From: an uncultured Thiohalocapsa sp.
GTDB lineage: Bacteria; Pseudomonadota; Gammaproteobacteria; Chromatiales; Chromatiaceae
DNA: 64,000 bases
Assembly: GCF_913063425.1 (NCBI RefSeq)
Contig: NZ_CAJXYK010000016.1
Span: 1 to 64,000 of the forward strand
Direction of reading: 5' to 3'
Part shown: positions 1,676-62,426 of the stretch, in pieces
Layout: every line of letters starts with the position of its first letter
How positions within the stretch are numbered: the stretch's first letter is position 1
Notes under the pieces: model-generated
What the model saw: the letters and a program-made list of their open reading frames with translations, nothing else
What the model was told of the DNA's origin: nothing
The model's database searches: none
Translations under genes and position numbers: made by a program

Positions 1676-4600
1676 CTACAGGCCGACGGGGGTCCAATTG
1701 ATGGGCTCGATGGGCGCCAGCGGCGTGACGGGGGCCGGCGGGTCGATGAGCCAGTCCGCAGGCGGTGGCGGTGCGGCCGGTGTGAAGCTGCCGGCGGCGC
1801 CGTCGAAGAGCAGCGTCGGCGCCGACGGGGCGGGCGGCGCCGCCGGCGTCGCGATATAGCCCAGGCCGCCGGCGGCGCCCGCACTCAGGCTGGTGGTGCC
1901 GAGCGTACCCGTCGTGCCCGGCGCCGACAGGGTCATGAGCGGCAGCGGAGGCACCGGTACCGACGGTAATGGCGTCATGGGCAGCGGCGGCAGGGGCAGC
2001 AGCGGCCCGCCGGTGGGGCCCGAGGGCGGCACTGGCGGCAGCGTCCCGGGGGTGGGCAGCACCGGCGGCGTCGGCGGAATCGGCGGCAGGCCGGTGCCGG
2101 GTCCGCCGGTGGGCGGCAGCGGGAAGAGGGCGAGGCTGGGCGTGCCGAGGCTGAGCCTGCCAGGGAAGGCCGCGCTGGTCTGATCGTCCAGGGTGGCCGT
2201 GTCCGCCTCGATGACCTCGATGCCCTGATGGCCGATGCCGGCGGCGGGGCCGGCGCCGGTGATCTCGGTGTCCGTGACCCTGATGTCGCCGACGGCGTTG
2301 TTGAAGAGCATCAGCCGGTCCTGGTCGGCGCCGCCGTCCACGTCGATGCGGGCGGTGAGCGCTGCCATGCCGGCGGCATCGCCGAGCTGGATGCTGTCGT
2401 CGCCGGCGCCGGTATCGAGGTGCACGGGGGCGGCGGCGGCGCGCACCTGGACCTGGTCGGCGCCGGCACCACTGGCGATGCTGGCGGCGGCGCTGGTGCC
2501 GCTCACCGTGATGTCGTCGGCGCCGGTGCCGAAGTGCAGCGTCAGCGCCGCTATACCGGCGTAGTCCAGGGTGGCGGTGCCGACGCCGGCGAGGCTTGCG
2601 GTGTCGACGATGAAGCCGATGCCGCGGGTCATGGCGCTGTTGTCCACGGTGAGCTGGTCGTCACCGGCGCCGCCGTCCACGGTGATGCTGCCGCTGACCT
2701 GCTCGGCATCGCGGCCGGCGCCGACGGGCCGGCCGAAGACGAAGGCGTCGTCATCCGCGTCACCGAAGAGGCGCAGGGCACCACTCGCAGCGTGGACCTC
2801 AAGCCTGTCGCTGCCGGCACCGGCGCGCACTTCAGTGTCGCCACCGGCGCGCGTCAGCACCACCTGGTCGGCGCCGCCGCCGGCGTCGATGTCGAGCGTG
2901 CTGTCGGTGCCGACCGCGCTGATGGTGTCGGCCTCCTCGCCGGCGCGGATGTCCACGCTGCTGCCCTGGGCCCTGAGGTTGAGCGCATCGCTGCCGGCGG
3001 CGCCGGTGAGTGTGGCGATGGCGTTGGTCACGACGATGTCGAAGCGGTCGTCATCCGCCTCGCCGTCGAGGTCCAGACGCGCTGCGATGGCATCGCCGGT
3101 GAGGGTGTCTGCGCCATTGCCGAGCCGGGCGTTGAGGACGCCGTTGCGCTGCTCGATGTCCAGGCTGTCCGCGCCGTCGCCGCCGAGCACGTCCGTGGTG
3201 CCGGACTGACCCTCCAGCGCGAAATCGTCGTCACCGTCGCCGCCGTCCAGCGTCGCAGTGGCGCTGGTGAGCGCGAGCGCCACGTGATCGGCGTCGGCGC
3301 CCGCGCTCAGGGTGAGCTGGCCGGCGGCCACAGTCCCCTCGATGTGGTCGGCACCGCTGCCCGTGTCGAGGCTGGTGCTGCCCCCCTGGAGCTCCACGCG
3401 CACCCAGTCGTCGCCGCTGCCGGTGGCCACCGTGCTGGTCTGGCCCAGGGTCTTGAGCCAGAGCCGGTCGGCGCCGGCGGCGGTGTCGATGATGGTGGTC
3501 CCGCCGGTGCGCACCACGTTGATGTCATCGCTGCCGGCACCGCCGGTGATGTGGGTCTCGCCGCCGTGGGTGCCGCCCACCGTCAGCTCGCCGCCGGCGT
3601 CGCCGAGGTTCAGGTCGAGCCGCCCGAGCTGGCTGTAGTAGATGCCGTGGTCGAACCAGGTGTCGGCCTCATCGTCGCCCATACCAAGGCCGCGCAGGGC
3701 ACTGCCGCTCAGCTTGCCGGCCCGCGGGCCGGGGTCCATCTCGCCGGTCTCATCGAGCACCAGCCGGTCGCGGGCATCGAAGCCGCCATCGATCCAGACC
3801 TCGCCCTTGATGGCATCCAGCACGCCGCCGCTGTTGGCGTCGGGCGCAGCATTGCTGCCGATGTGGATCAGGTCGGCGCCGAGGTGGGTGTAGAGGCGTA
3901 TGCGGCTGCCGTCGGCGAGGCTGCGCAGCACGATGGTGTCGGCGTCGTTGTGGCCGTGGACTTCGATCTCCGGGGCGAGGACATCGCCGACGAGCTCGAT
4001 GACGGCGCCACTGCCCGGGTCCGCGTTGGCCGGGCCGAACAGGTAGGCGTAGCCGATGCCGGCCTCGGTGCCCTGGTAGTCGGCATGGATGCGCACGCGG
4101 CTCGCGGCCTGCACGGTAGCGCCGTCCTCCAGGATGAAGTCATCGCCCGCCAGCAGCTGCACCTCGCCGGCGGTGGATTCGATCCGCAGCGGATTGCCCA
4201 GCAGGTCCTGGCCGCGCACGCGCAGGTGGTCGGCGTCGTCGGCGGGGTTTGCCGGGGTCGAGGTGCCGTCGGCGTCGTTGTCCGCGGCATCGTCCATGGC
4301 GATGATCCGGATGTCGTCCACCGCAAGGACGCTGTTTTCGACGGTGACAGGGCTGCTGGCGACGAAGCGCACCTCGCCGCCGGCCTGGATACCGTCGTCC
4401 CCGCCGGTGACGCCGCCGACGGTGACGGCGCCGGCGTTGTAGACATAGGCCGAGCCGTTGACGGCGCGGCCCTCGGCGAAGCCGATGCTGGTCATGAGCG
4501 GCTTGGCGTCGGTGCCGACGTCCTGGGCGGCAAAGAAGTAGACCCGGCCGCCGGTGACATTGCTGCCGCCGTCGTCACGGGCGTTGACAATGCTGCCCAC

Positions 4601-22600: not shown

Positions 22601-23329
22601 ACGACCCGCGAAGCTGAGCGTCTGTGCGCCCCTGCCGGCGGTGAGCCGTTCCATCTCGTCGAAGCTGATGCCGGCGACGCTGCCCCGACCGGTGGTCTCG
22701 ATGTCCCAGGTGAGCGCGCCGGCGGCCCCCACCAGGGCGTCGTCGTCGCCGGCGCCGGTGAGCCGGTCCACACCGGTGAACTGGACGGGACCCACCTGGC
22801 CCGCGTTGGCGCCGGTGAGCTGATAGCTGCGATCGGACGCGGGGCCAGTGAGGCTGTCGGTGCCGAGACCCGCGTTGAAGGCGATGGGAAGGGGCGCGGC
22901 GAGGTCGAACAGGCCGTCGCCGAGCAGCAGGCTGTCATCCAGGGCGCTGCCGTTGATGACGATCTCGCTGGTCTCAGCCAGCGGCTTCTCCTCGATGACA
23001 GCCGGCGCATCACCGCTGCGATCCAGCAGCTGCAGGGTCTCGACCCCCTCGTCATCTGTGGTGAGGCGCAGCTCCAGGTCCGCCGCGGTCGCCGCGGTGT
23101 AGGTCAAGGGGTCGGCGGAGAGGAGCAGCCGGGGCTCCAGCGGCTCCATCAGCACGCAGGGGCGGCCCGCCTGCGAGCGTCGCTCGGCGCCCCGCAGCAG
23201 CCGCCTGACCCAGGCACCGACGCCATCGCGCCGCCGCGGCATCATCGCTTGCACTGCGTCGCCAGGGCCTGTTGACGCCGGCGACAACCGGGGTCGGGAT
23301 GCCTTGATCTGCGCGAAGGGAAAGGACAT
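1676..23329 (-). CDS. Giant LEPR-XLL-type repetitive secreted protein (about 7,217 aa)
   Basis: One uninterrupted frame of 7,218 codons. The start chosen is ATG at 23329, with AAGGG about nine bases upstream; an in-frame upstream start at 23437 has no such support. The N-terminus is basic and lacks a classical signal peptide. Residues 64-74 read LEPRLLLSADP, the motif that names the LEPR-XLL domain found at the front of very large repetitive exported proteins. Residues about 280-860 carry GGxGxDxLxGG nonapeptide clusters (RTX/haemolysin-type, predicted Ca2+ binding). About 1080-4280 is an array of 55-65-residue beta-strand repeats. About 4300-6550 is mixed: haemagglutinin-like beta-helix segments and several modules with a HGLSTGQQLVY-type motif. 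About 6580-7030 is again GxGxD-rich. The last 180 residues are rich in Pro, Gly and Leu, and no type I secretion tail is recognisable. It is probably an adhesin or S-layer-like fibre. The divergent operon at 23847-30871 is the likely export partner (inference). Confidence 0.85.
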   Translation of the reverse strand: MSFPFAQIKASRPRLSPASTGPGDAVQAMMPRRRDGVGAWVRRLLRGAERRSQAGRPCVLMEPLEPRLLLSADPLTYTAATAADLELRLTTDDEGVETLQLLDRSGDAPAVIEEKPLAETSEIVINGSALDDSLLLGDGLFDLAAPLPIAFNAGLGTDSLTGPASDRSYQLTGANAGQVGPVQFTGVDRLTGAGDDDALVGAAGALTWDIETTGRGSVAGISFDEMERLTAGRGAQTLSFAGRATGVVVDLERGEATGFEGISGFRHIIGSDFADRLIGDAAANTLQGRDGDDRLTGGAGSDSLVGGSGADVVVAARDADMTLANTSLTIGTEGTDSLSGITAAELTGGDGANVLDAAGFSGETTLTGGAGNDTLIGGAGDDRLSGGVGTDSISGGGGTNTLFETADADFTLNDTALTRGADPADSLAAIQRAELTGGDGDNVLDASGFSGRATLIGGAGDDTLIGGSGDDRLTGGAGIDVIDGGAGSNTLVEAGDHKFVLTDSRLDTGEGDDEQVQLRLTGSVTGGSFSLAFGGETTRTIAHDASADRVALALSLLDGLTDEDVAVTAVTGGWDITFTGNRAGENVPDLGIGASDLTGPGAGVTAGVIDGSARSDSLARIQRAELTGGAGGNLLDASAFTAGAVILDGGAGNDTLRGGSGDDTLRGGDGNDVLTGGAGNDSIDGGGHLAADTLTAQRDADMTLTDTALTIGAEVDTLTGIEAAALTGGLGANRLDASGFTGGGVTLDGGGGNDTLVGSDQDDLLTGGAGEDDIDGGGGTDTLAEVRATADFTLTDTGLAVSGEGDNSLRRIEQAILTGGAAAQTIDASAFTLGPVTLMSGGGLDTLRGGADADTFVVDVSNLTGGDVEVDGEAQDEIIVVGIGASLDADFDGFIDYGDVGSLTVERDGTLTVTDDLSRPGRHFTLRAERITVDGAEIDTGDPGGQAGNLTLEARHISIRGGAVLTALGLDPGATTDDGDIRILAEDTADDFRAIGFANVDLTDAGVSISGAGTRIEGRDLTIKATAGAEHFFTPSDFGDFVLADALAGALDTIVGVVDSFSVIAGVGVAESDAHVDVGADVVVHARDFVAHSTAKGAVDVAPISLAAGVAVGVVNTVSETTIAGTINAAGNVTVRASADHSVNVVSDSTGIGGIAGAVAVSVLNSDTTARVADTASITAGGNLTVQGDTIDRNRTLARSTSGADGQVGISLAVSVENGATNAYLDGTATADGDLLVNATQEKQALDVNRLFVIPGIATGVVSAAGVGTTSKGDLLDDAKSSAIGTVTSRITPKVTGFLQSRGPQFIRDLLDEPASNTFDAGAAVTVVVDNNAATARIGDGNADGDMHTADVEALGGITVSASTSNRPDYTAGASVSNEVSDTAQNSTTPAVARFGGSLAVVVGITKNDADAYIGGDATVDAVGEIRVAAQALNQVDPVGLWGVNLVAPFFTDLPTAPDHTSTDGVATVSVGDKVEVGDNHAAGGDVGSWYEYKGKSGGSDLNDQVLDLADTDFTTDDWEAIGNPAADFGIGYIRTLTTYLDANLGLDNNLIDAWSQATAKGQKLAVAGAATVLVLDQDADAVIRDGARINRDAAFQGTHGTATSQAVVVAAESVDHLISLGGNFQTPGVQGSTSPEKKAWKAEGGLQKPGPGLSTDGTGEKTVGAALQVFYHDNDVTAQIQDGVALTADSLLVDADTQVVGVSMGASGGSGGSVGFNGSFQVTVVTNSTRAQIDNGATIDVGSEAISDEIDESLRVTAADSTNLVSVVGGVALSDGIGIGASVAVNALTRNTEALLGNHFAADSIGTRGSVAVGGDSLIRARNSGFIGTFAVAGAKGGGRQPSTTPSNPGPGSGGTTGSDGSAQSNADLAAWQTKMSAVLTEMQGKGKVAGGVAQAGQANSSNQTGIGIAGAVGVNIVNDDSRAYLLDTGTVTITGGALDIEAENAGVVLSLAGAVAFASGAGSSTGKAAGVSGAFAINTAVGTTEAYLDGASSITADALTIDAERTGTLVSLAAGIAAATGKTSVAVAGSVSVNVADNVTEAALRSTTGHVAGNVTVQALDDTDIIQIAGSGGFGGRVGVGVAIAVDVLSNQVLATMDQVTGFQHGGALSVAATGDGLIVSVTGSAGVATGGGGKGVAVAGTLAVNVVENTVTASILDSTTLDTSAGNVTVSADDAASIYTFAGGFAAGRTAGFGVALALNFIENDVDSDITGSRLRTSGGLTTRAGEEAVLVAVALGGAGAEKLAVSGAVAVNSTANETQARIAAGSDIRVGGPVAVTTTDSTTSIVVAGGVAFSRAGAVGAGIGVNLIENRATAAIDSAKVEATGGDQTIDIGATASQVLVSVVIGGAGADKIAVGGAVAVNEIENTVEARAGNGADLDAAGRIGIAAADSSTMVVVAGAGAGARTAAVGAAVGTTQVDNRVHADIIGADLTSSGGAIEVTAGFAPPSAIRDVSQMGVGTADVELPDTEQAQIVNVTIAGAGAKTFAGGAAISLNWLRNDVRASIRGGAEVIADGQITVAANDDAEIDSIALAGGGAQTAGIGAAIAYNYIGGDPGDPSREVPADPEATDAGRVFAYIDNADVESLSGQVSVLAGARARLINVTLGGAGAQSVAVAGSISINFIRNIVEARIADGATVTGDTGVNLSATASPLMVIVAGAGAGAQSLALGAASATNDIRSSVNAVIRGAGTVVTADTGDVQVLAQVVSRSDWTDIKNRDDFRDQDDIDFDAQIWSFTAAGSGAQTAAGAGSISLTWLRNSVAADIGPGASVRAIDGSVSVQAYDHATMNTLAGAGTGSGNAAVGASIAYNYVGGNPDDPTSSARNSITAGIDAATVNAGAVTVAAESDATINNLSVAGSGAGSGAIAGAFSLNWIRKSVDASVSGGAQVTSTGDIAVTADDTSEIHSIAGQVSGAGTLAAGAAIAYNEISNQVEASIAGLATQVRVATGNAGDIRIEAHSAPEVFTIAAGIAGSGTAALAGSSAATIVENDVNALIHSARVTTDDNLLLLAESDDRVQSYVGTFSGSGTFGAGGSVVVNELRNDTRAYITGDARVIARGDGGAMDVKRWAPDNAGTESTEAMRGLAVIATATEDLDVIAVAGGVAGQVGIGLNLVFNTIDDSTLAYIHDSQVNSSSDRGGAVKVRAHHAAEIDSTGGALGVGLGIAGAGAAVDTNTLHSETKAYISDDGDTDRVYAGDGLEVSALSREDVLTASVGVGGGLYAGIAGAASAVDSSSSTHAYLDRGQVLATGRVDIAADSRVRAEYGVGAGAVGVVGAGGAVAVGIFGGSTRAYVVGSSVNATGSISVSARAVEDFDLFAGTASVGGAALAGAVTVLTTGSLTEAFIGRDAAGRDSTLTAGGAVLVSAIGTTYADDIAGSITAGGIAAGAAVDVIIIKNTVGAAIGDGTSVTAADDVDVTAEATRDVDSLVIAGGGGAGSVGIAGSISVVSIGTGITDDDASGEAAPANDVLDDTFGGVNGLSDDPDDVVAQRARQSASDSRAGVDALRIGKDTSTTGTSASIGREASVTAGADGSGSILVQAIEDLLLEATTGQGAVGAIASVGGSVTVVSIGSVVAASVGRKSVLTAPSRIDIDAQFDATDVKAEAYGGSAGGTLGLGAQVVMITDTATQAAFVEGATQDMDGTAIRRAGVLDVTATGDRSYQVYAKGVAAGALAAGVSLGHAAVGGSTLAYLGTHTQVGQGTGNSVGAVNLSADSDVTLDVDIWTVAAGIGAGAVNPATASADPKVYAYIDADSAVTATGAVTLSAGMTPRLTANVWGVAAGGLAVGVSVTDIEIAPVVAATLGDPEDSTAGAVTLSAGSLSLSAQIDLPTSGHSAWVKSEGVAGALVGVDSTNATIDNDSSVIAVIGDGASLTVGGAVAVSADNQGRQAAEANSAAGGGIAMGVAMSAARSNTLTTARLGDGVDLTAASLSLTAAGAQDNFADTVAGSGGVVAGAGAGASTRNDSITTAGIGAGAANRGIDLTGAGDGTLTIAATNTATFHTRTRTTGGGVLSGTGAENRSGVSSTVRAAVGAGQDIRTRDAALSADNILRKEAFNDGSATIYGTTGGAAAGAGAGSETDISLATEVLIGAGTELDAFKRSGESAGDILLRARNDTIVEDRVHLETGGALAGAGSESFIRVHTARAEVDIGADAELRSDGRILALTGGEAELSSKVNQNTYGAGTVGVAETISRITPENRVDVHAGAHLRAAGDLVLAAGSDGERNRDEYAVKAETDTFAGSAIPIELVDSTARILATNLIDIAGGALLETGGDALLHADFEFGAIDLVTRAKSVSWVSALGDAINGETAEELVGGNGSAEAKGSVAMDGTVRTGLNRHQAIILDQYALPSDTATPEAQRVGHRSFTIDPGAPGTVSGDAVHVGAAHGFQTGDLVQYNSGGGLPVGGLVDGQAYFAVRLDADSLRLAQTRDAALSGAYLALDPSQASGDAHALSAKSNGIDYSVAFVPKAADLVDELLYAQEQLATYDVQGVNNNQNLVDFYESEVERLRALLEAEGLIEYPDPVNNPGYWIPVTTDALAVTVDPITAKTGRIDVRSGQLGGTGLFDSPRDASVEVINHTPSDLIVQGVEIPDSNAGLWLNGFLMADNQDVAASNDANADLNNRIGDDPDVVPASADFAAVPAPGSASLPDLRIENTFDRRAFDSSSPYYDPANPSAEYPDPDILIEGPVINILGDVSIVTQGDLGAEAEIRAGGNLQLLSGGTVVLGGQTERNIAGREIYGFLKSRLGTGGLMTSYVPGAVANLLNTPSDVVGISADRIIVDANYININGIIESGDDGYDITIDPDDIPFWLPLLPHGTYDLPGVSNDDVVVRFNAATNQIEVREIRVSGGYIDLTGHILSSSPGEIRLLGGYGEIDITNHTAFDLVVDQALDASSRGEGTLIIKDKAQGGADGLPATIYRYQDDGTVQRTVGNGPPQSVGASSVYDTQNGWRWGFNVYQEQDTTRYKTEVTDTWLDIDFLVPDPDDVEWDRVEPAGPPVLTDEGPYYFRDTGDTSAYAFDRQTVSSYTGPIEVIEDKVDTTWYGRKTYTKTIQQKTTEGTMASHSVRADRDIKVSFLGGTAADVSITSTRAGADVLLDAPIRNTSGTTRIDSAGAIRSRAEAAIVGGRHLDLDAATGIDVRTELANTGFHGLDARTDNGSVDIREATGDLGVGLVQAAAGGDVTLDVPDGAITAGRAANGAWLAGRVEGGSVTLDAGAGGIGTSTARPLLLDSNNANVPIGPSIDERVNVTAAGDIFLREVVGDLRLESAIASGGDVWLDVPAGSLVDANDSAVRDERSYNELLNGLWTDMRLTAGTGATDRINDTLESWTQLREQEYQTYWEYRQRQPAAPLATAETAPLEAGREYFVIADAGGIGLAASGADALAGNALDLLPAAATGTAHGISVASFQLDTDAQVGSADDSIGIPGRVFADGDAVTYSRDGGSADIGLDEGVTYYVQVLAGDPDRFRLSRDAAGTDPVDLSAAADTRLHRLDRLALFAPADVDGTTDRIDLDAAALGLSTGDIVRYSRGGAGDQALRVRSTTTLEDGAGYYVILDGADGVQLAASPTDAAAGRAIDIDSAGALGHLHQLYDLSSKQSHSFDPIADVDSAADRIRLGAGHGLSTGQQLVYLTSVYDPGFNPGLSAAEEDAYRDFYREQGAAEGKTGAELDAHVDDAIATLEARRQVEYQALHTQYGQLTDAAGNPNTWLTHAEIYEPDFEVVLSPDERAELSAGIEVWTEEQIFYAMGAGVLEPIADTTTEIEDPNATGADITLTADEHIGRTGNRIVIDLTASLSDEQRVALAAAEREDVTFLSDTPQSARVIIAGHDLIRIDGGTWDSDRFRLGGPVELWGNSANDSRDTGNIYSVAAIDGATLTLADTFADGSPVTLTTELFRDIELAPVVLDPLGGLPAGVSVTGIVIEQREDFDVDASGLINADAGGQAYLGSEEVMRIGHVTAVDDIRIKGQQDVLDAAPSGPAVTGTGLIIESGRGNIGHADGSGDFRIDLLGTGTLTARADGDVRVEEVTGDMRIETVFAQNGRAELTAAGGIVDALGNIYANIATGLDLVLTARSGPIGGADNPLEIDVGRNGTLTATATGDIVLAETAGDMNVRRVQSSGGDVSLSADLSIFDAADAAGGGTTGYTPPGSPDGTDPLPRADVIGNDISLTAGTGGAFGNIGVSGNDLDLDTAFSGGGVLRAESLGFAYLIETTGDLGVHSVGTAGQAFIAAPVGSIVNARDDGGSNVTGGRVYFFAAQDVGTDAKPLMTSIGFAEGRAVNGSAYVYNAGAVTVGGVTGGDDGIQAGGEVRFVASSPVTVENSVLAVDDIRIIAMDDAADNDADGTSTPANPADDADHLRVRGQDLLGNPLRIESTAGEVQLLAGDDFILEDGATVQAASRVRIHADYQGTEAGIGYAYLFGPANADPGSGAVIELVGDVLAPEIEVHGHNDADTIVLRSLADGSRIRLYTHLGADLIHIGSNAAPDANSGGVLDAIKGEVWIDGGFDARDRLVLDETGEMDPGPRAGKLSGSALRGLGMGDDEADTWFDHGIYYSQLGRLDLNLGDAGGELTVGGTHGGETHITGGAGSDDINVVRTGGTTIIDTAAGADRLWLKTLGQTSTVATGSGDDWVRVELQGGSTSLDTGSGADHIEGTVAAGQLTLSAGADADHVALALTSATATLDGGDGDDDFALEGQSGTTDVLGGDGADSLDIEQRNGVLNARLGNGADTLTGDAIAARLDLDGEADDDRFDIVVTNAIATLTGAAGSDALNLRAQGSSVDIRAGEEADTISAVGTDSTLDIDAGGGADQVVLTRAGGDTEVRAGAGSDRLEVHAASGALRLFGDADDDAFVFGRPVGAGRDAEQVSGSITVDGGAGDDQLTVDNSAMTRGIGFIVDTASLAGVGTATLDYAGIAALTLHFGTGADDITVSGTSAAASIASGAGADQVQVRAAAAPVHLDTGAGDDSIQLGDAAGMAALTARIDVDGGADQDRLMLFNNAVGDIRVTDTEITGAGPAAGIGHQGIEVIEADTATLDDQTSAAFPGRLSLGTPSLALFPLPPTGGPGTGLPPIPPTPPVLPTPGTLPPVPPSGPTGGPLLPLPPLPMTPLPSVPVPPLPLMTLSAPGTTGTLGTTSLSAGAAGGLGYIATPAAPPAPSAPTLLFDGAAGSFTPAAPPPPADWLIDPPAPVTPLAPIEPINWTPVGL
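2230..3600 (-). repeat. Region encoding C-terminal GxGxD (calcium-type) repeats
   Basis: Codes for residues about 6580-7030 of the giant protein. The pattern is short beta strands separated by turns such as GGAGSDDI, GSGADHI and GGDGDDDF, at intervals of about 18-20 residues. This is longer spacing than the canonical nine-residue RTX period seen near the N-terminus, so the ladder may be a looser beta-roll. Confidence 0.7.
10490..20090 (-). repeat. Region encoding about fifty 55-65-residue beta-strand repeats
   Basis: Residues about 1080-4280 of the giant protein. A typical unit reads: a Val/Ile-rich strand, then an AGGxAxxxxxAVGAAxxxN segment, then an xIxNxVxAxI segment, then GAxVxAxGxVxV. 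Units are degenerate at DNA level (no long perfect repeats seen), which points to an old array under protein-level selection. The copy number is my estimate from length divided by unit size. Confidence 0.7.
20750..22500 (-). repeat. Region encoding N-terminal RTX-type GGxGxDxL repeats
   Basis: Residues about 280-860 of the giant protein. Several blocks of two to four nonapeptides such as GGAGNDTLIGGAGDDRLSGG are separated by 40-60-residue linkers containing a repeated LTGGDGxNVLDASGFSG-type strand. The RTX family binds Ca2+ at these turns and folds after export. Confidence 0.85.
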
Positions 23330-23846
23330 GGTGACTGACCCTTGAAACCTTTCAGGTGGTTGGCGTGAGCGTGCGCCGCAGCAGCCAGGCCCCGCGGCGC
23401 CCGGGGTGGGTCCCGGCATGGACCGTGTGCGCCGCACCGGCGCAGGCCCCTGCCGCCGCGGCGCAACATTCTTGACAACGGCTCAGGGTATTAAATCGTG
23501 CCGGCCTGCGGCTATCCCTGTCATCGGCGTTTCGCCGCCCTTCTTCGCCGCACCGGCATCAGCGCACAACTGTATTTTGGATAAGTGGATGCCGTATACA
23601 GTTTCGCGGGGATGAGTGTCCCTGTATCGGTCATATTTACGAGCCGCTCTGTGCGAAAATACCGGCGGCCGGCTTCGTGTAACGCTTAGGCTGTCACAAT
23701 GATCACCGCCGCAGGATGAGAACGCCCCGCCGACGCCACTCGGCTGCCAGGGTCAAGTCGGGCAGGACCGGGCGGCACAGGGTCCGCCTCGACATCACCA
23801 CGCGCGGCCCTGAGCCCCCGCCGGCGCCGCACCTCCCGCAGTGGCC
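23330..23846. other. Divergent intergenic region between the giant gene and the export operon
   Basis: A 517-base region, long for this compact DNA, between two divergent transcription units. Its centre (about 23470-23700) is notably AT-richer than the flanks. It contains a TTGACA at 23472 without a well-spaced -10 element, and an inverted repeat described separately. It must carry the promoters for both sides. I cannot fix transcription starts by eye. Confidence 0.5.
23568..23603. promoter_or_regulatory. Perfect 8-bp inverted repeat, candidate operator
   Basis: AACTGTAT (23568-23575) and ATACAGTT (23596-23603) are exact reverse complements separated by 20 bases. They sit in an AT-rich patch midway between the divergent giant gene and the HlyD/M50/SecA operon. 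The geometry fits a dimeric regulator contacting the same DNA face. No regulator gene is seen next to it. Confidence 0.4.
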
Positions 23847-25856
23847 ATGAGCACCGACAGCAGCACCACAGCCGGGCAAGCGCCCGCCCTCGACGGCAGC
23901 CGAAGCGCCGGCGCGGACTTCACCGACCCCGCCGCCTGGGAGCGCCTCCAGGACGCGGCGGACCCGCAGGCCTTCGCCGCCGCCTGGCTGGACCTGCAAT
24001 GCCGCCTGCTCGGCGATGTCACCCTGGCCGTGCTGGTGCTGCACGACACCGACACCGGCGAGCTGCGCCCGCAGTGCTGGTGGCAGCCGCCGGCGGCGGA
24101 CGCCACCGCCGGCAGCAGCGCCACCGCACCCGAGGCCGCCCACCCGGCGCTCACCGCCGTCGCCGAGCTGGCGGTGGCGCAGCGCCGCGGTGCGGTGCGC
24201 CGGCGCGGCGGCGACGGACCGGCGGATGCCGGGAACACCACGCGTGGGGACGCCCGTGACGTCTACGCCTGGCCGCTGATGACCGGCGAGCGGGTGGCGG
24301 GCGTCGTCGCCGTCGAAGCCGCGCACCGCGGGGAGCCGCGCATGCAGCAGGTGATGCGCCTGCTGCAATGGGGCGCCGCCTGGTGGCAGCCGCGCCTAAC
24401 CGCGTCGGACAGTGCCGGCGGGCACCAGGCGCACACCGGCGTGCTCGGTGTCCTGGTGAGCGCCATGGAGGCCAACGGGCTCGCCGCCGCGGCCACCGCT
24501 GCCGTCACCGAGCTGGCCCTGGTGCTGGACTGCGACCGCGTCGCCTACGGCAGCCGCCCCGGCCGGCACGTGCGGGTGCGCGCCCTGTCCCACTCCGCCC
24601 AGTTCAACAAGAAGAGCAGCCTGCTGCGCGACATCGGCGCCGCCATGGACGAGGCCATGGACCAGCAGGCCACCGTCCTGCTGCCGGAGCCCGCGGCTGC
24701 CGACGCAGCCGGCGCCGGCCTCGCCACCCACGCCGCCCGCCGCCTCGCCGAGCGCCACGGCGCCCGCGCCCTCTGCGTGCTGCCACTGGCCGACGCCGGG
24801 CACATCGTCGGCGCCCTCAGCCTGGAACGGGATGCGGAGCGCCCCTTCACGGCGGCGGAGCAGGCCCTCGCGGAGCACACCGCCACCCTGCTCGGCCCGG
24901 TGCTGGAGGCCAAGCGCCGGGACGATCGCTGGATCGGCGCCAAGAACCTGGACGCCTTCATCGGGCTGCTCGGCCGGCTCTTCGGGCGCGGGCACCTGGT
25001 GCTCAAGACCAGCGCGCTCGGACTGCTGGCGGTCGCGGTTTTTCTGGCCACGGCCACCGGCGCCTACCGCATCAGCGCGCCGGCGACGCTGGAGGGGCGG
25101 GTGCAGCGGGCACTCACCGCGCCGCTGGACGGCTTCATCGCCGGCACCGCCGTGCGCCCCGGGGACCTGGTGCGGGCAGGCGACCTGCTGGCGCAACTGG
25201 AGGACAAGGACCTCAAGCTGGAGCAGGCCAAGTGGGAGGCGGAGCGGGCCAAGCTCGCGCGGGAATACAGCCAGGCCATCGCCGAGCGCGACCGGGCGCA
25301 GATGCGCATCCTCGGCGCCCGCATCGACCAGGCCGAGGCACGCGCGGCGCTGCTCGCCGAGCAGCTCGCGCGCACCAGGCTCACGGCCCCCTTCGACGGC
25401 GTGGTGGTCTCCGGTGACCTGAGCCAGTCCATCGGCGCGCCGGTTTCCCGCGGCGACCTGCTCTTCGAGCTGGCGCCGCTGGACGACTACCGGGTGGTGC
25501 TGGAGGTGGACGAGCGCGACATCGCCCGGGTGCACCCGCGCCAGCCCGGGCGGGTGGCCCTGGCGGGCCTGCCGGAGGAGCCTCTGCCCATCGAGGTGGT
25601 CAAGCTCACGCCGGTGGCGGAAGCGCAGGCGGGCGACAACCGCTTCCGGGTGGAGGCACGGCTGCAATTGACGGCGCCCGGGGACGCCGGTGTCGGGGCC
25701 GACGCCGCGGTGCTGGACGCCGCCACTCTCACCCTGCTGCGGCCCGGCATGCGCGGCATCGGCAAGCTCGACGCGGGCGAGCGCAAGCTGTTCTGGATCT
25801 GGACCCATCGGCTTGCGCACTGGCTGCGCATGCAGTGGTGGTCCTGGGCCGGCTGA
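23847..25856 (+). CDS. GAF-domain / HlyD-type membrane fusion protein
   Basis: A protein of about 669 residues. The N-terminal 340 residues are cytoplasmic and contain GAF-like sensor sequence (about 210-340, including LCVLPLADAGHIVGALSLE). One transmembrane helix follows at about 382-402 (TSALGLLAVAVFLATATG). The remainder is a HlyD/RND-type periplasmic adaptor: a split biotinyl-lipoyl half (APLDGFIAGTAVRPGDLVRA), a short coiled-coil hairpin (about 450-510), the second lipoyl half (RLTAPFDGVVVSGDLSQSIG) and a beta-barrel. The start is ATG 23847; a GTG six bases earlier is possible, and neither has a clear ribosome binding site. It opens the operon, and its stop lies 26 bases before the M50 gene start. 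The fusion suggests an inner-membrane adaptor whose activity responds to a cytoplasmic small molecule or partner (inference). Confidence 0.8.
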   Translation: MSTDSSTTAGQAPALDGSRSAGADFTDPAAWERLQDAADPQAFAAAWLDLQCRLLGDVTLAVLVLHDTDTGELRPQCWWQPPAADATAGSSATAPEAAHPALTAVAELAVAQRRGAVRRRGGDGPADAGNTTRGDARDVYAWPLMTGERVAGVVAVEAAHRGEPRMQQVMRLLQWGAAWWQPRLTASDSAGGHQAHTGVLGVLVSAMEANGLAAAATAAVTELALVLDCDRVAYGSRPGRHVRVRALSHSAQFNKKSSLLRDIGAAMDEAMDQQATVLLPEPAAADAAGAGLATHAARRLAERHGARALCVLPLADAGHIVGALSLERDAERPFTAAEQALAEHTATLLGPVLEAKRRDDRWIGAKNLDAFIGLLGRLFGRGHLVLKTSALGLLAVAVFLATATGAYRISAPATLEGRVQRALTAPLDGFIAGTAVRPGDLVRAGDLLAQLEDKDLKLEQAKWEAERAKLAREYSQAIAERDRAQMRILGARIDQAEARAALLAEQLARTRLTAPFDGVVVSGDLSQSIGAPVSRGDLLFELAPLDDYRVVLEVDERDIARVHPRQPGRVALAGLPEEPLPIEVVKLTPVAEAQAGDNRFRVEARLQLTAPGDAGVGADAAVLDAATLTLLRPGMRGIGKLDAGERKLFWIWTHRLAHWLRMQWWSWAG

Positions 25857-25882
25857 GCACCCATCGCAGCACCTTTCAGGAC

Positions 25883-28033
25883 ATGAGCGAGACCCTCTAC
25901 AGCCCGGACTGGTACCGCGTGGCGCCGCTCAGGCCGCGCCTGCGCGCCCACGCCCAGATGCACCGGCACGCCTACCGGGATGCGGTCTGGTACGTGCTGG
26001 AGGACACCGCCAGCGGGCGCTGCCACCGCCTCTCCGCCGGCGCCTACGGGCTCGTGGGCATGCTGGACGGCGTGCGCACCGTGCAGCAGATCTGGGACGC
26101 CGCCCAGGCCCGTGACGGCGAGGACGCACCCACCCAGCAAGAGACCATCCGCCTGCTCGGTCAGCTCCATGCAGCGGACCTGCTGGTGGCGGACCTGCCG
26201 CCGGACAGCGCCGAGATCGCCGAGCGCCACGACCGCCAGCAGCGCCGGCAGCTGCGCCAGCGCCTGGCCCAGCCGCTCGCCGTGCGCATACCCCTGTGGG
26301 ACCCGGACGCCTTCCTGACCCGCTGGCTGTGGCTGGTGCGCCCGCTTTTCAGCTGGGTCGGGCTGCTGCTCTGGCTCGCGGTGGTGGTCACGGGTGCGGT
26401 GCTGGCGGCAAGCCATTGGTCCGCCCTCACCGGCAATCTGGTGGACCGGGTGCTGAGCGCGCAGAACCTGCTGCTGCTGTGGCTCGCCTACCCGCTGGTG
26501 AAGGCGGTGCACGAGCTGGGCCACGGCTTCGCCGCCAAGCGCTGGGGCGGCGAGGTGCACGAGATCGGCATCATGTTCCTGGTGCTGATGCCGGTGCCCT
26601 ATGTGGAGGCGTCATCGGCCTCGGCCTTCCCGGACAAGTACCAGCGCATGGTGGTGGGCGCCATCGGCATCATGGTGGAGCTCTGTCTCGCCGCCCTGGC
26701 CCTGTTCCTGTGGCTTGCGATGGAGCCCGGCGTGGCCCGGGCGCTCGCCTTCAACGTCATGCTCATCGGCGGGGTCTCGACGCTCTTCTTCAACGGCAAT
26801 CCGCTGCTGCGCTTCGACGGCTACTATGTGCTGGCTGACTGGCTGGAGATCCCGAACCTCGCCACCCGCGCGCAGCAGTACCTGGGCTGGCTCACCCAGC
26901 ATCACCTGTTCGGCGCCCGCGACCTGGACCCGCCCCACAGCGCACCCGGCGAGCGCGGCTGGCTGGTGTTCTACGGCATCGCCTCCTTCCTGTACCGGCA
27001 GTTCATCCTGTTCGCCATCGTGCTGTTCATCGCCGGCCAGTTCTTTGTGCTCGGCGTGCTGCTGGCCATCTGGGCGGTGACGCAGCAGCTCCTCTGGCCC
27101 CTCGTGAAGGGCCTGCACTTCGTGCTCACCAACCCCAAGCTCGACCGGCGCCGCGCCCGGGCGGTGCTGGTCACCGCCAGCCTCGCGGCGGCGCTGCTGG
27201 CGGTGATCGCCGTGGTGCCGGTGCCGTCCTGGACGCGCACGGAGGGCGTGGTGCAGCTGCCCGAGGAGGCACGGCTGCGGGTGCAGGCGGCAGGCACCGT
27301 CACCCGGGTGCTCGCCGCCGACGGCAGCCGGGTACAGGCGGGGCAGCCGCTCCTGGCGCTGGCGGACCCCTATCTGGACGCGGAAGTGGCGCTGCTTCAG
27401 GCGCGCCTGCGCGAGCTCGACGCCCGCCTCACCGCCGCGCAGGTCACCGACCGCTCCCGCACCCGGGTGCTGCACGAGGAGATCGCCCAGGCCCGCCGCG
27501 ACCTGCAGCGCGCGCAGGAGAAACAGGCCGGCCTGGTGCTGAAGAGCCCGGCGGCGGGGCAGCTGGTGCTGCCGGACGCCGCCGACCTGCCCGGACGCCA
27601 CCTCGCCCGCGGCACCCCGGTGGGCTATGTGACGGCGCCGGGCCGCGCCGAGATTCGCGCCGTGGTGGACGAAGATCGCATCGGCCTGGTGCGCGAGCGC
27701 ACCGACGCCGTGTCCGTGCGGCTGCGGTCCTGGGCAGCGCAGCCCGCAGCGAGCCGCATCCTGCGCCAGGTGCCGGCGGCCACCCAGGACCTGCCGGCGG
27801 CGGCGCTCGGCAGCGGCGGCGGCGGGCCGGTGGCGCTGGACCCCACGGACCCCAACGGCCGCCGGGCGCTCACGCCCGTGTTCGTGCTGGATCTGGCGCT
27901 GCCGCCGGCGCTCGCCGCCGAGGCCCTGCCCGGGCAGCGCGTGGCGGTGCGTCTGGACCACGGCGCCGAGCCCCTGTCGGTGCAGTGGTACCGGGCGCTG
28001 CGCCAGCTGTTCCTGTCGCACTTTCAGGTCTGA
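25883..28033 (+). CDS. PqqD-like / M50 site-2 protease / HlyD fusion membrane protein
   Basis: A 716-residue protein. Residues about 1-105 resemble a PqqD-type winged helix (VLEDTASGRCHRLSAGAYGL then VRTVQQIWDAA), the fold used as a peptide-recognition element. Residues about 150-440 form several membrane helices with the zinc-metalloprotease motif HELGH at 210-214 and the second M50 motif GNPLLRFDGYY at about 305-315, so the protease looks intact. Residues about 450-716 are a HlyD-type adaptor with lipoyl halves (RVQAAGTVTRVLAADGSRVQ; LKSPAAGQLVLP) and a coiled coil between. The start is ATG 25883 with AGGAC just upstream; a more distal in-frame ATG at 25835 would overlap the previous gene. 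It probably combines substrate recognition, intramembrane cleavage and passage toward the periplasm. The substrate is unknown; the giant LEPR-XLL protein is the obvious candidate. Confidence 0.85.
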   Translation: MSETLYSPDWYRVAPLRPRLRAHAQMHRHAYRDAVWYVLEDTASGRCHRLSAGAYGLVGMLDGVRTVQQIWDAAQARDGEDAPTQQETIRLLGQLHAADLLVADLPPDSAEIAERHDRQQRRQLRQRLAQPLAVRIPLWDPDAFLTRWLWLVRPLFSWVGLLLWLAVVVTGAVLAASHWSALTGNLVDRVLSAQNLLLLWLAYPLVKAVHELGHGFAAKRWGGEVHEIGIMFLVLMPVPYVEASSASAFPDKYQRMVVGAIGIMVELCLAALALFLWLAMEPGVARALAFNVMLIGGVSTLFFNGNPLLRFDGYYVLADWLEIPNLATRAQQYLGWLTQHHLFGARDLDPPHSAPGERGWLVFYGIASFLYRQFILFAIVLFIAGQFFVLGVLLAIWAVTQQLLWPLVKGLHFVLTNPKLDRRRARAVLVTASLAAALLAVIAVVPVPSWTRTEGVVQLPEEARLRVQAAGTVTRVLAADGSRVQAGQPLLALADPYLDAEVALLQARLRELDARLTAAQVTDRSRTRVLHEEIAQARRDLQRAQEKQAGLVLKSPAAGQLVLPDAADLPGRHLARGTPVGYVTAPGRAEIRAVVDEDRIGLVRERTDAVSVRLRSWAAQPAASRILRQVPAATQDLPAAALGSGGGGPVALDPTDPNGRRALTPVFVLDLALPPALAAEALPGQRVAVRLDHGAEPLSVQWYRALRQLFLSHFQV

Positions 28034-28037
28034 GGCC

Positions 28038-30047
28038 GTGCTCACCGGTTGGCACACACTGCTCGCGCCACCGCCGGTGCCGCGCCCCGGCCCGGTGCTG
28101 GGCACCTATCCGGAGCGGGCCTTGTCCCGGCTCGGGCCGCTGGAGCGACTCTGGGACCGCAGCCTGGGCACGCTCCGGGGCCTGGCACCCGCGCACACGC
28201 GGCGCTGGCAGGGCATCGTGCGCGCCGTGCACCGCCAGGCACCGGCGCTGGCGGCGCTCGACGGCCCCGCGCTGGCGGCGGCGGTGGCAGACGCACGCGT
28301 GGCGCTGCGCCGGCAGGGGCTCAGCCGCGCACCCTGCATCCGCGCCTTCGCCCTGGTGCGCGAGCAGGCCCACCGCGTGCTGGGCCTCACCCCCTACGAC
28401 GAGCAGCTGCTGGGCGGCTGGGCCATGCTGCGCGGGCGGCTCGCGGAGATGCAGACCGGCGAGGGCAAGACCCTGACGGCGACGCTGCCGGCGGCCACCG
28501 CCGCGCTCGCCGGCATCCCAGTGCACGTGATCACGGTCAACGACTACCTGGTCCGGCGCGATGCCGGGCAGATGGGTCCCCTGTACCGGGCGCTGGGCCT
28601 GAGCGTGGGTGCCGTCACCGCAGACATGGACCACGCCGCCCGCCGCGCCGCCTACGCCTGCGACATCGTCTACTGCACCAACAAGCAGCTGGTGTTCGAC
28701 TATCTGCGCGACCGCCTGGCGCGCGGCGGCGCCGGCGCCCTGCGCCTGCGCCTGGATGGCCTCTTCGGCAGCGCCGCCGTGGGCGGGCGCCTGCTGCTGC
28801 GCGGGCTCTGCTTCGCCATCGTCGACGAGGCCGACAGCGTGCTCATCGACGAGGCGCGCACCCCGCTGGTGATCTCCGGCGGCGCCGGCGCGGATGCCGA
28901 CCCGGACCCGGCGGTGTACCGGCAGGCGCTGGCGGCGGCGGCGGCGCTGCGCGAAGGCACCGACTTTCGCCTGCGCCGCGCCGAGCGGGAGGTGGAGCTG
29001 ACAGACACAGGCCGCGCCGCCCTCGAGGAATCCATGGACGGGCTCGGCCGCGTCTGGCACAACGCCCGCCAGCGCGAGGAACTGGTGCGCCAGGCCCTGT
29101 ACGCGGCGCACCTGCTCAAGCGCGACACGCACTACCTGGTGGCGGACGACAAGGTGCAGATCGTCGACGCCTACACCGGCCGGCTCATGCGGGACCGCAC
29201 CTGGGAGCGCGGCCTGCACCAGCTGGTGGAGACCAAGGAGGGCTGTACGCTCACGCCGCGCAATGCCACCCTCGCCCGCATCAGCTACCAGCGCTTCTTC
29301 CGCCGCTACCTGCACCTGGCGGGCATGACCGGCACCGCCCGCGAGGTGGCCGCAGAGCTCTGGGCCGTGTATCGCCTGGGCGTGGCCCTGGTGCCGACGC
29401 ACAAGCCCCTGCGCCGCCACCTGCTGGGCGAGCGCGTGCACCGCGATGCGGGGGCCAAGTGGCGGGCGGTGGTGGCGCGGGTGCAGCGCATGCACGCCGC
29501 AGGCCGGCCGGTGCTGGTGGGCACGGTGTCGGTGGAGGCGTCCGAGCAGCTGAGCGCCCGACTCACCGCCGCCGCCATCCCGCACCAGGTGCTGAACGCC
29601 CGTCAGGACGCAGACGAGGCCGCGGTCATTGCCGCCGCCGGTGCACCGGGGCAGGTGACGGTGGCCACGAACATGGCCGGGCGCGGCACCGACATCCGGC
29701 TCGCCCCCGGCGTGGCGGCGCACGGTGGACTGCATGTCATTGCCACCGCCCGCCATGAGGCCCGGCGCATCGACCGCCAGCTCTTCGGCCGCTGCGCCCG
29801 CCAGGGAGACCCGGGCAGCGCCGAGGCGCTGACGGCGCTGGACGACCCGCTGCCGGCGCAGAGCCGCTGGTGCAGGCCCGCGGCCCTGCTGCCCTGCGCC
29901 GCCCAGGGCTGCGCGCCGCTGGCGGTGTGGCTGGAGCGCCGCGCCCAGCGCGCGGCGGAGGGCCGCCACGCCCGGGTGCGCCGGCGTCTGTTGCAGCTGG
30001 ACGAGCAGGTGGGCCGGCTGCTCGCCTTCACCGGCCGGGGGGAATGA
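28038..30047 (+). CDS. SecA-like translocation ATPase, C-terminally truncated
   Basis: 669 residues against about 900 for housekeeping SecA. Clear SecA features are Walker A MQTGEGKT (about 138-145), ITVNDYLVRRDA, CTNKQLVFDYLRD, DEAD-box VDEADSVLIDEARTPL (about 262-277), MTGTAREVAAEL (about 430), VTVATNMAGRGTDIRL (about 540-555) and a variant motif VI GRCARQGDPGS (canonical GRSGRQGDPGS). The protein stops just after NBD2 at the start of the helical scaffold. The helical wing, the rest of the scaffold and the Cys-rich SEC-C tail are missing. The start is GTG 28038, four bases after the M50 gene's stop. Its last bases overlap the next ATG (ATGA). It is therefore an accessory SecA paralogue dedicated to this operon, not the general SecA. 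Confidence 0.88.
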   Translation: MLTGWHTLLAPPPVPRPGPVLGTYPERALSRLGPLERLWDRSLGTLRGLAPAHTRRWQGIVRAVHRQAPALAALDGPALAAAVADARVALRRQGLSRAPCIRAFALVREQAHRVLGLTPYDEQLLGGWAMLRGRLAEMQTGEGKTLTATLPAATAALAGIPVHVITVNDYLVRRDAGQMGPLYRALGLSVGAVTADMDHAARRAAYACDIVYCTNKQLVFDYLRDRLARGGAGALRLRLDGLFGSAAVGGRLLLRGLCFAIVDEADSVLIDEARTPLVISGGAGADADPDPAVYRQALAAAAALREGTDFRLRRAEREVELTDTGRAALEESMDGLGRVWHNARQREELVRQALYAAHLLKRDTHYLVADDKVQIVDAYTGRLMRDRTWERGLHQLVETKEGCTLTPRNATLARISYQRFFRRYLHLAGMTGTAREVAAELWAVYRLGVALVPTHKPLRRHLLGERVHRDAGAKWRAVVARVQRMHAAGRPVLVGTVSVEASEQLSARLTAAAIPHQVLNARQDADEAAVIAAAGAPGQVTVATNMAGRGTDIRLAPGVAAHGGLHVIATARHEARRIDRQLFGRCARQGDPGSAEALTALDDPLPAQSRWCRPAALLPCAAQGCAPLAVWLERRAQRAAEGRHARVRRRLLQLDEQVGRLLAFTGRGE

Positions 30048-30871
30048 GCATGAGACAACACAGATATCCGGTCACTGCGGCGGCGGTGCTGTGCAGCCTG
30101 GCGGCGGCGATGCCGGCCCAGGCGTCGGACCTCGCCGGCTTCGACTGCGTCATCGAGCCCGCCAGCGTCACCGAGGTCAGCACCCGCGAGGAGGGCATTC
30201 TGGAATCCCTCACCGTCGGTCGCGGCGATCAGGTGCGCGCAGGCCAGGTCATCGGCTGGCTCAATCGCGACGTGGAGCAGGCCACGGTGGACCTCGCCGA
30301 AGCCCGCGCCACGGTGGATGCGGAGATCGCGGAGCTGGAAGAAAGCCTCGCCTTCGCCGAGCGGGAGCGCGCGCGCATCCAGCAGCTCTCCGAGGCCAAG
30401 GCCATCTCTGCCACCGAGCAGGACAAGGCCACCAGCGAGGCCAAGCGCGCCGCACTGCGCCTACAGCAGGCCCTGGAGCAGCGCCGCATCGCCGAGCTGG
30501 AGCTGGCCCGCGCGCGCCGGCTGCTCGCCAACCGCAACATCCAGAGCCCCGTGGACGGCGTGGTGATGGAGCAGCTGATGGCGCCCGGCGAGTCCGCCGA
30601 GAACCGCCCCATCCTGCGCATCGCCGAGCTGGACCCGCTGCACGTGGAGATCTTCGTGCCCGTGGAGCGCTTCGGCGCCATCGATGTGGGCATGCGGGCT
30701 GCGGTGATGCCCCGCTACCCCGGGGCCGAGCCCCAGCAGGCGGAGGTCACCGTGGTGGACCAGGTCATCGACGCCGCGAGCGACACCTTCGGCGTGCGGC
30801 TGCGGCTGCCGAATCCGGACTTTCGCATCCCGGGCGGGGTGCGCTGCGATATCCGCTTCCTGCCGGACTGA
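30044..30871 (+). CDS. Periplasmic HlyD/RND-type adaptor protein
   Basis: 275 residues with a cleavable signal peptide (YPVTAAAVLCSLAAAMPAQA/S). An N-terminal lipoyl half (ILESLTVGRGDQVRAGQVIG), a coiled-coil hairpin of about 90 residues rich in Glu, Arg and Ala, a second lipoyl half (NIQSPVDGVVMEQLMAPGES) and a beta-barrel follow. It lacks a membrane anchor, unlike the other two HlyD-type proteins of the operon. ATG 30044 overlaps the SecA-like stop by four bases; a second ATG at 30050 lies nearer the GGGGGGA ribosome-binding stretch and may be the real start. It is the last gene of the operon and ends 19 bases before the stop of the convergent radical SAM gene. No TolC-type outer-membrane channel is present nearby. 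Confidence 0.85.
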   Translation: MSMRQHRYPVTAAAVLCSLAAAMPAQASDLAGFDCVIEPASVTEVSTREEGILESLTVGRGDQVRAGQVIGWLNRDVEQATVDLAEARATVDAEIAELEESLAFAERERARIQQLSEAKAISATEQDKATSEAKRAALRLQQALEQRRIAELELARARRLLANRNIQSPVDGVVMEQLMAPGESAENRPILRIAELDPLHVEIFVPVERFGAIDVGMRAAVMPRYPGAEPQQAEVTVVDQVIDAASDTFGVRLRLPNPDFRIPGGVRCDIRFLPD

Positions 30872-32728: not shown

Positions 32729-32736
32729 GATGTCGA

Positions 32737-33609: not shown

Positions 33610-33639
33610 GGCGTGCAGCGGCTCCCGCGGCGGTGCCCG

Positions 33640-34701: not shown

Positions 34702-34863
34702 CAGGCAAATCCCATTCAAGCGCACAAGGCTGCCGGCTGTCCACGCCTCCCGGGCGCTGCCCCGCGGGTACGCCGACTTCAGCCGACACCCTGGGAAAGA
34801 CGGACGTCAGTCCGCCGCTGCAAGTGATCGTTTGACCCCAGGGGTGTCGCAGCCGCGCAGACA

Positions 34864-62345: not shown

Positions 62346-62426
62346 GTGCTGGCTCCCGGGCCAATGGCTGGAACAGCCCGGCATTGTCTGGACGGGCCGC
62401 ATGGGCGTCAAGCGCCGCGCCCGCGC

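Follow-up and report, generated by a model that had tools for sequence, protein, structure and literature searches.

We analyzed a 64,000-nt stretch of DNA (hereafter, the window; GC content 71%) from an uncultured Thiohalocapsa sp. (contig NZ_CAJXYK010000016.1), in which the gene for a giant protein with a LEPR-XLL domain lies across one intergenic region from four genes on the opposite strand. These encode a GAF-HlyD adaptor, a fusion of PqqD-like, M50 protease and HlyD parts, a shortened SecA-like ATPase and a free HlyD adaptor. Rfam and tRNA scans of the window gave no match. The features of the locus are the following.

1676-23329, minus strand: giant LEPR-XLL protein of 7,217 aa, the presumed cargo (open reading frame (ORF), translation, LEPR-8K over cut-off)
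21260-22525, minus strand: RTX nonapeptide repeat region of the giant, about residues 269-690 (PF00353, six stretches; limits set by eye)
23111-23140, minus strand: LEPRLLLSAD motif of the giant, residues 64-73, presumed leader or recognition site (NF012209 match; 67 leaders compared)
23330-23846, no strand: divergent intergenic control region (from the sequence)
23847-25856, plus strand: GAF, one transmembrane segment (by eye), HlyD adaptor (Pfam GAF and HlyD_3; homologs beside the M50 gene)
25883-28033, plus strand: PqqD-like/M50/HlyD fusion, 716 aa (profiles and structure model)
25931-26185, plus strand: PqqD-like domain, residues 17-101 of the fusion (profile match to PDB 3g2b)
26510-26524, plus strand: HELGH of the M50 protease, residues 210-214 (invariant residues among homologs)
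27218-27973, plus strand: HlyD/membrane fusion protein (MFP) part, residues 446-697 of the fusion (Foldseek to MexA, MacA and AcrA)
28038-30047, plus strand: SecA-like ATPase, 669 aa, without two-helix finger and helical wing (profiles, alignment, model, structure comparison)
30044-30871, plus strand: free HlyD/MFP adaptor with a Sec-type signal peptide (by eye; TIGR01730, 118.4 against a cut-off of 94.9)

The giant protein and its leader

The longest frame of the giant covers 7,253 codons, from a GTG at 23437 to 1676 on the minus strand. The ATG at 23329 (MSFPF..., 7,217 aa) is the more likely start, because a start of the MSFPF kind, defined as M, V or L followed by S/A, F/Y, P and F/W, is present in 15 of 67 distinct LEPR leaders; a start of this type also occurs a short way upstream of where the giant on an Alisedimentitalea plasmid is annotated to begin. 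In one public record (L229, NZ_CP123586.1), the annotated start of the giant falls downstream of its own LEPR motif.

An earlier note on this DNA had described a protein of about 7.2k residues with an N-terminal LEPR motif and without a classical signal peptide, and both statements held up. The LEPR-XLL domain scores 30.4 bits against the NCBIfam NF012209 cut-off of 17, with the motif at residues 64-73. No classical signal peptide is apparent, because the most hydrophobic 19-residue stretch starting within the first 120 residues has a mean of only 0.63 on the Kyte-Doolittle scale. The LEPR leaders are basic, with a median net charge of +7 in the stretch of up to 42 residues that precedes the motif and a positive charge in 62 of the 67; in this comparison, the motif was placed by best fit near the match, which biases it towards the consensus, and one probable false match (L024) is included. 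NF012209 exceeded its cut-off in 1 of 14 control genomes, too (Deinobacterium). By Pfam, RTX repeats are confined to the first third of the giant, and the remaining two thirds gave no Pfam match at 0.001.

The operon and its four products

The earlier note had presented the four genes as an overlapping operon with exactly these domain contents. All four genes and their domain matches are in place, but only the SecA and HlyD genes overlap, sharing an ATGA at 30044, whereas the other junctions are gaps of 26 bp (GAF gene to M50 gene) and 4 bp (M50 gene to SecA gene). The ATG of the fusion at 25883 is the start common to its homologs. Three HlyD parts are encoded in the operon, one each in the GAF protein, the fusion and the free adaptor; the single transmembrane segment of the first and the signal peptide of the last were read by eye from the translations.

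Against Pfam, the fusion scores under threshold, with 17.7 bits for PqqD (cut-off 23.4) and 26.1 bits for M50 (just below 27.2). The PqqD assignment is based on a profile of the fusion family, which matches the solved PqqD structure 3g2b over residues 17-101 (E 2.1e-4). In 65 chosen fusion sequences, H210, E211, H214, N306, P307 and D312 are invariant, and of the 87 sequences in a wider set, 80 have a complete HE.GH and 79 the second motif (NP...D). The structure model of the fusion (mean pLDDT 85.8, pTM 0.58) places seven long membrane helices, counted by eye, between the N-terminal domain and the C-terminal HlyD part, an arrangement that would put the PqqD-like domain in the cytosol if the HlyD part is periplasmic.

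M50 proteases often act in regulated intramembrane proteolysis, and the fusion might accordingly be a site-2-protease signaling device coupled to giant surface proteins rather than part of an exporter. The GAF domain in the operon would suit such a device, as would a GGDEF/EAL family found among the neighbors in 17 stretches (L107, 17744-20866, and 16 others by clustering), which may reflect the mere abundance of such genes. Three HlyD parts, a SecA-like ATPase and the TolC genes linked to the system in relatives fit transport better, and we regard the signaling explanation as very improbable.

The SecA-like protein exceeds the Pfam cut-offs for PF07517, PF21090 and PF01043, that is, for the motor and preprotein cross-linking domains. 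It reaches 577 bits against the SecA cut-off of 814 and also stays under the cut-offs of the four SecA2 models that it matched. Alignment to Bacillus subtilis SecA (1m6n_A) ends at residue 602 of 802, bearing out the earlier statement that the housekeeping C-terminus is lacking; the missing part comprises the two-helix finger, the wing and the greater part of the helical scaffold. All of 17 diverse members share TGEGKT and DEAD, and across 75 loci, where the median length is 666 aa, motif patterns were found for GEGKT in 72, DE[AV]D in 74, GRG[TS]D[IV] in 63 and GR..R[QH][GD] in 66. Comparison shows that the predicted active-site residues of both the M50 and the SecA parts are largely conserved.

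The structure model of the SecA-like protein (pLDDT 89.1, pTM 0.90), which ends in a single helix (627-665), fits SecA caught with SecY and substrate best (6itc, TM score 0.83, root-mean-square deviation 2.6; 5eul, 0.81 and 3.0). The fit is poorer for free SecA (1tf5, 0.68), and the C-terminally truncated E. coli SecA N68 (5k9t) gives 0.59. Such a predicted conformation is no proof of a partner. It bears on the possibility that SecYEG is the inner-membrane channel and the SecA-like protein a specialized SecA2 that feeds it LEPR leaders, with the adaptors acting only beyond the membrane. Besides the fit to SecY-engaged SecA, the retention of the motor and preprotein domains is consistent with this arrangement, and subtypes that lack the short SecA (see below) could use the housekeeping SecA. 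However, no hydrophobic signal peptide was found in the leader of the window giant, and the SecA-like protein is missing the two-helix finger and wing; the multi-helix fusion, though always present, was the search query and so provides no independent evidence. Overall, we consider the SecYEG arrangement fairly unlikely. The missing finger leaves a clamp-type action or a different partner for the SecA-like protein.

Association of giant LEPR proteins with the operon

Co-occurrence was examined in 397 genomes of the phylum of the window (presumably Pseudomonadota), each at least 90% complete, with identical genomes used for each query; genome rows were transcribed by hand from lists, and ORFs run from stop to stop and are cut at contig ends. 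The fusion was found in 85 of these genomes, a LEPR match in 77 and both in 65, giving counts of 65/20/12/300 for both, fusion only, LEPR only and neither (p 6e-44, relatedness ignored). The 12 genomes with LEPR only have scores of 17.2-20.7 bits and ORFs of 48-1,014 aa. When only LEPR ORFs of at least 1,200 aa are counted, the table becomes 55/30/0/312, with the fusion present in all 55 genomes that have such an ORF, and all 35 genomes with a fusion above 500 bits have a LEPR match; both thresholds were chosen after the lists had been seen.

The association is retained when the counts are stratified by family. Ten families are informative, nine of them in the same direction (Cochran-Mantel-Haenszel (CMH) p 6e-14), and when the count is limited to LEPR ORFs of 1,200 aa or more, all eight informative families agree (p 1e-16). 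The earlier note had asked whether the two parts co-occur beyond expectation or are found independently in most genomes, and the result, together with the frequent physical linkage described below, is the opposite of independence.

In a set of 38 relatives, the fusion was found in eight genomes and LEPR in six. Among the 29 with a completeness of 90% or more and a contamination of no more than 5%, LEPR was matched in 5 of 5 genomes with the fusion versus 1 of 24 without (Fisher 5e-5), the single exception being a 17.2-bit match in a 178-aa ORF (G029). The three fusion-bearing relatives without LEPR are only 69-83% complete. The named set comprises at least 80 loci, the best of 586 relatives, from which we picked 50 genomes and examined 49; here, 43 of the 49 genomes with the operon have a LEPR match, in ORFs of up to 15,371 aa. 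The phylum and named sets share at least one genome (L145 and L196 have the same leader). These comparisons show that giant and machine belong together genetically.

Physical linkage is common as well. Among the 105 LEPR matches, 31 in ORFs shorter than 1,200 aa were set aside. Of the remaining 74 ORFs, 46 are on the same contig as a fusion gene, and for 39 the distance to it is no more than 10 kb; 35 of these share its strand. In 11 self-picked genomes of few contigs, a LEPR ORF lies within 5 kb of the fusion in 11 of 15 cases and within 16 kb in 13.

Around the M50 gene, the cassette itself is highly conserved. Among the 80 named loci, scored only where enough flank was available, the GAF-HlyD gene sits beside the M50 gene in 68 of 68, and a SecA-like gene in 69 of 72, where one scored miss (L083) has a SecA match inside a merged ORF; a SecA-like protein of the 650-700 aa that the earlier note had predicted to co-occur thus does so, at about 666 aa. 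A free HlyD is present in 47 of 57 loci, sometimes upstream or on the opposite strand. By record title, the GAF-M50-SecA order recurs in alpha-, beta-, gamma- and deltaproteobacterial and Nitrospira contigs, and one of the named loci is labeled Deferribacteres. A complete operon is found on the Methylosinus plasmid pMSC49a, in the order giant (8,847 aa, LEPRVLLNAD), DUF3467, GAF/HlyD adaptor, PqqD/M50, SecA-like, HlyD and TolC. The SecA-like gene of this plasmid (L226, NZ_AP022333.1) is annotated as a prepilin peptidase and scores 923 bits against the SecA-like profile. In 26 of the 67 loci that could be assessed (for example, L096, 7526-7864), the GAF-HlyD gene is closely preceded by one for a small DUF3467 protein (PF11950), and SapC was found within 9 kb in 13 of 37 assessable named loci.

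The source genome carries the system twice. A second four-gene operon of identical order on another contig (C6) shows 43.2, 52.5, 58.5 and 45.6% identity over tblastn segments, a second LEPR protein, with an ORF of up to 12,613 codons, is encoded on a third (C28), and the SecA DEAD domain is matched three times in the genome. The second operon (L007, 7817-15701, minus strand) is headed by a SapC-family gene (PF07277), and the second giant (L008, 4026 onwards, plus strand) has the motif LEQRLLLSAD, with a phage-type integrase gene ending 2.5 kb upstream. A neighborhood formed by chance or by a shared island would be in keeping with the patchy distribution and with the result that nine other genomes of the genus contain neither the M50 fusion (E at most 1e-30) nor LEPR (E at most 0.05) at the thresholds used. 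This explanation is contradicted by the LEPR-fusion association across many families in the 397-genome table, and we give it almost no credence. A second operon and a second LEPR giant in the genome, together with a gene order preserved across scores of loci, show that the gene set is more than chance.

Subtypes and cargo size

At least 30 of the 397 genomes have the short SecA, counted from matches down to about 564 bits, and the fusion is present in every one of them. The largest LEPR ORF per genome has a median of 7,279 aa with the short SecA (n=30) versus 2,737 aa in other fusion-bearing genomes with LEPR (n=35; p 7e-5), and in genomes of at most 150 contigs, 9,714 aa (n=20) versus 3,048 aa (n=24; p 4e-5); these p-values are uncorrected for relatedness or contig ends, and the largest LEPR ORF of a genome need not be the cargo of that operon. 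Because genomes without the short SecA hold smaller LEPR ORFs, this SecA appears to be an optional part that serves the largest cargoes.

A low-scoring tier of fusions (116-348 bits) has a different organization. The 12 low-tier loci examined have an HlyD-HlyD-M50 arrangement, in which the HlyD identity of the middle gene was assigned by eye, and are without the short SecA; one (L221) gives a SecA-profile match of merely 24 bits. In 8 of these 12, the N-terminus of the neighboring giant is visible, with the motif ALEPR-xx-(F/L)D(G/A)A. The ending of the LEPR motif differs between the tiers: D(G/A)A was seen in 10 of 10 low-tier motifs versus 0 of 30 high-tier motifs of the phylum set, assigned by eye and clumped by descent, and two high-tier Methylorubrum leaders outside the phylum set end in DAS and DGT. 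GAF-bearing loci without SecA nearby were also found, in G016, G020 and G248; absence was checked at the locus for these (L027-L029 for G016 and G020, L220 for G248) and not for G088, G095, G153, G361 and G456. There appear to be at least three subtypes, namely, GAF with SecA, GAF without SecA at the locus, and neither, with ALEPRxxFDGA-type leaders. The earlier note had implied that SecA is required; with related subtypes lacking SecA at the locus, we rejected an obligate need for it.

Outer-membrane channels and ABC exporters

The earlier note had reported neither an ATP-binding cassette (ABC) transporter nor TolC, which holds for the operon region. TolC genes do accompany the system elsewhere, however, and the inference drawn from the missing TolC had to be abandoned: in relatives, TolC appears to be part of the system, both on pMSC49a and in at least 10 of the 30 SecA-bearing genomes of the phylum set, where a TolC match on the same strand stops 108-700 bp short of the LEPR motif. 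TolC-family genes over cut-off are present in all 30 of these genomes, and TolC-like ORFs in 8 of the 96 stretches examined, not every one of which holds an operon. In the source genome, where the 64-kb window contains no TolC, a TolC-type channel is presumably encoded elsewhere. The TolC genes upstream of LEPR ORFs in eight genomes (G091, G099, G145, G149, G165, G181, G189 and G333) have stop-to-stop frames of 874-1,085 codons, perhaps representing TolC fused to another domain.

In a crude motif scan of the 96 stretches, no ABC ATPase was found by the operon, and the only one detected at all lies in the window at 61455-62426, about 31 kb from the operon. At one locus (L210), an ABC gene is located 1.6 kb from the giant, and at another (L225), peptide-importer genes lie downstream. 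With no ABC exporter found by the operon in this crude scan, we rejected a plain type I secretion system (T1SS).

A subtler possibility is that the giants leave via an ordinary T1SS encoded elsewhere, while the operon only matures, anchors or regulates them. The RTX repeats in the first third of the giant and the ABC gene at L210 speak for this, as do T1SS ABC genes over curated cut-offs in 25 of the 30 SecA-bearing genomes, including PrtD-type genes in the source genome (LssB in 16 of 30, PrtD in 10 of 30, and HlyB in 4 of 9, having been sought only in the nine genomes with neither of the others). The remaining five genomes (G132, G145, G200, G215 and G473) gave no LssB, PrtD or HlyB match over cut-off, only weaker ABC matches (best 362-576 bits), and one of them, G473, is a single contig with a LEPR ORF of 13,848 aa. 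The scan likewise placed no ABC ATPase by the operon, and the C-termini of adjacent giants look unrelated, with no common motif or conserved C-terminal signal seen by eye. Altogether, we find export by such a remote T1SS decidedly unlikely.

A candidate secretion machine

We consider it likely that giant LEPR proteins are exported and processed by a dedicated machine encoded in the operon and organized like a tripartite HlyD/TolC conduit, but without an ABC transporter. In the proposed mechanism, the PqqD-like domain of the multi-helix M50-HlyD protein would recognize the basic leader ending in xLEPRxLLSAD on the cytosolic side and bind it there, and the SecA-like motor would clamp the long unfolded chain and feed it onward. 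The HlyD parts of the three adaptors and a TolC-type channel would carry the chain across the periplasm and the outer membrane, and the M50 site would remove or release the leader. The inner-membrane pore might be formed by the M50 membrane domain, the adaptor assembly or SecYEG. What the comparisons demonstrate is association, gene order, conserved active sites and predicted folds; export, cleavage, the pore, the order of steps and the roles of single parts are inferred.

More broadly, and here we favor the claim only narrowly, this would be an unnamed Gram-negative secretion system powered by a shortened SecA in place of an ABC protein, in which the PqqD-like domain reads the LEPR leader, the M50-HlyD protein receives and cuts it, and HlyD and TolC bring to the surface proteins that range from about 2,000 to 19,000 residues, with at least three subtypes and the fusion in about one fifth of the sampled phylum genomes (85 of 397).

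Several observations weigh against this interpretation. HE.GH is not complete in all of the wider set of fusions, and the 50 Foldseek rows shown for the fusion model are all adaptors, with no PqqD or site-2 protease among them, so that Foldseek gives no support for the predicted PqqD-like and M50 parts. Without the two-helix finger, pushing as in SecA-SecY is doubtful, and SecA is absent from whole subtypes as well as from two further loci (L061 and L105). Of the other parts, a free HlyD is not found nearby in 10 of 57 loci, and the window itself is without TolC. T1SS ABC genes exist somewhere in most SecA-bearing genomes, including the source genome. The divergent giant of the window is a minority layout (4 of the 39 near pairs are on opposite strands). 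As to co-occurrence, 20 of the 85 fusion-bearing genomes are without a LEPR match, all of them in the low-scoring tier, one of which (G435, L218) does have ALEPRMMFDGA, missed by the LEPR model; one family (f72; 0/2/2/18) runs slightly the opposite way; and 6 of the 49 named genomes with the operon, all metagenome-assembled by title, have no LEPR match, while two of the 43 named matches are weak (E 0.01-0.03).

Neighboring genes

Immediately downstream of the operon, on the minus strand, lies a further group of four genes.

30891-31853, minus strand: radical SAM protein, start approximate (linked to the operon in a minority of loci)
31856-32731, minus strand: conserved protein Y, about 290 aa, start approximate (homolog comparison)
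32737-33609, minus strand: conserved protein X290 (homolog comparison)
33640-34725, minus strand: O-methyltransferase (homolog comparison)

At least one of the two proteins of about 290 aa gave no Pfam match, and at L061, an X290-like part is fused to DUF3467. The cluster (30891-34725) recurs near the operon in about ten other, mostly alphaproteobacterial stretches. With homologs only there and by the window, we rejected it as an obligate part of the system.

Comparison with known systems

In a full-text search of open PubMed Central, where preprints and most subscription papers are outside the scope, we recognized no description of this gene set by title or abstract. In the papers covered, LEPR-XLL comes up only twice and in passing, for a Vibrio giant of about 8,000 aa (PMC10868602) and in the name of a Baikal transcript (PMC9611531), and a further paper attributes an S-layer to a T1SS, a system other than the one described here (PMC13274458). 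META1_2412 of Methylobacterium extorquens AM1, with 15,831 residues, is reported to be, if expressed, among the largest proteins known (PMC2680597). In Methylorubrum genomes with the cassette, LEPR ORFs reach lengths of up to 15,371 aa. Some of the largest predicted bacterial proteins have no described route out of the cell. If our proposal is true, it identifies a machine and a leader for the export of giant chains, offers a way to test this route and implies that a SecA-type motor has been recruited to an HlyD/TolC conduit.

Every domain of this candidate export system belongs to a known family; we nevertheless rank it as a new candidate, since the operon does not contain the ABC part that defines the most similar kind of system and seemingly has a replacement for it. 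That kind, type I secretion, shares the HlyD-type adaptors and a very large RTX-bearing cargo and, in relatives, probably the TolC-type channel. It differs in that here a SecA-like ATPase and an M50 membrane protein stand in an operon without an ABC exporter, and a presumed N-terminal leader contrasts with the uncleaved C-terminal signal of type I. Two-partner secretion (TPS) also handles giant repetitive exoproteins, but Pfam at 0.001 found no TPS (hemagglutination activity) domain in three pieces spanning the whole giant.

Other systems resemble single parts of the operon. Accessory Sec likewise has a second SecA-type ATPase (SecA2), presumably for special surface proteins, whereas the SecA-like protein here ends before the two-helix finger and wing, sits with HlyD and TolC and is far under the SecA2 cut-offs. 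Leader proteases of ribosomally synthesized and post-translationally modified peptides combine a PqqD-like domain with an HExxH intramembrane protease, presumably acting on the leader; in contrast, our fusion stays below the cut-offs of both such families (158.1 bits against 300 for daptide_HExxH, NF041824, and 24.5 against 225 for YydH/LiaK, NF058609), is joined to HlyD and would serve a cargo of thousands of residues. Finally, C39-peptidase exporters (PCATs) use a membrane protein that cuts the N-terminal leader of the cargo (PMC8277102). The same principle is proposed here, but with an M50 protease in place of the C39 peptidase and no ABC motor.

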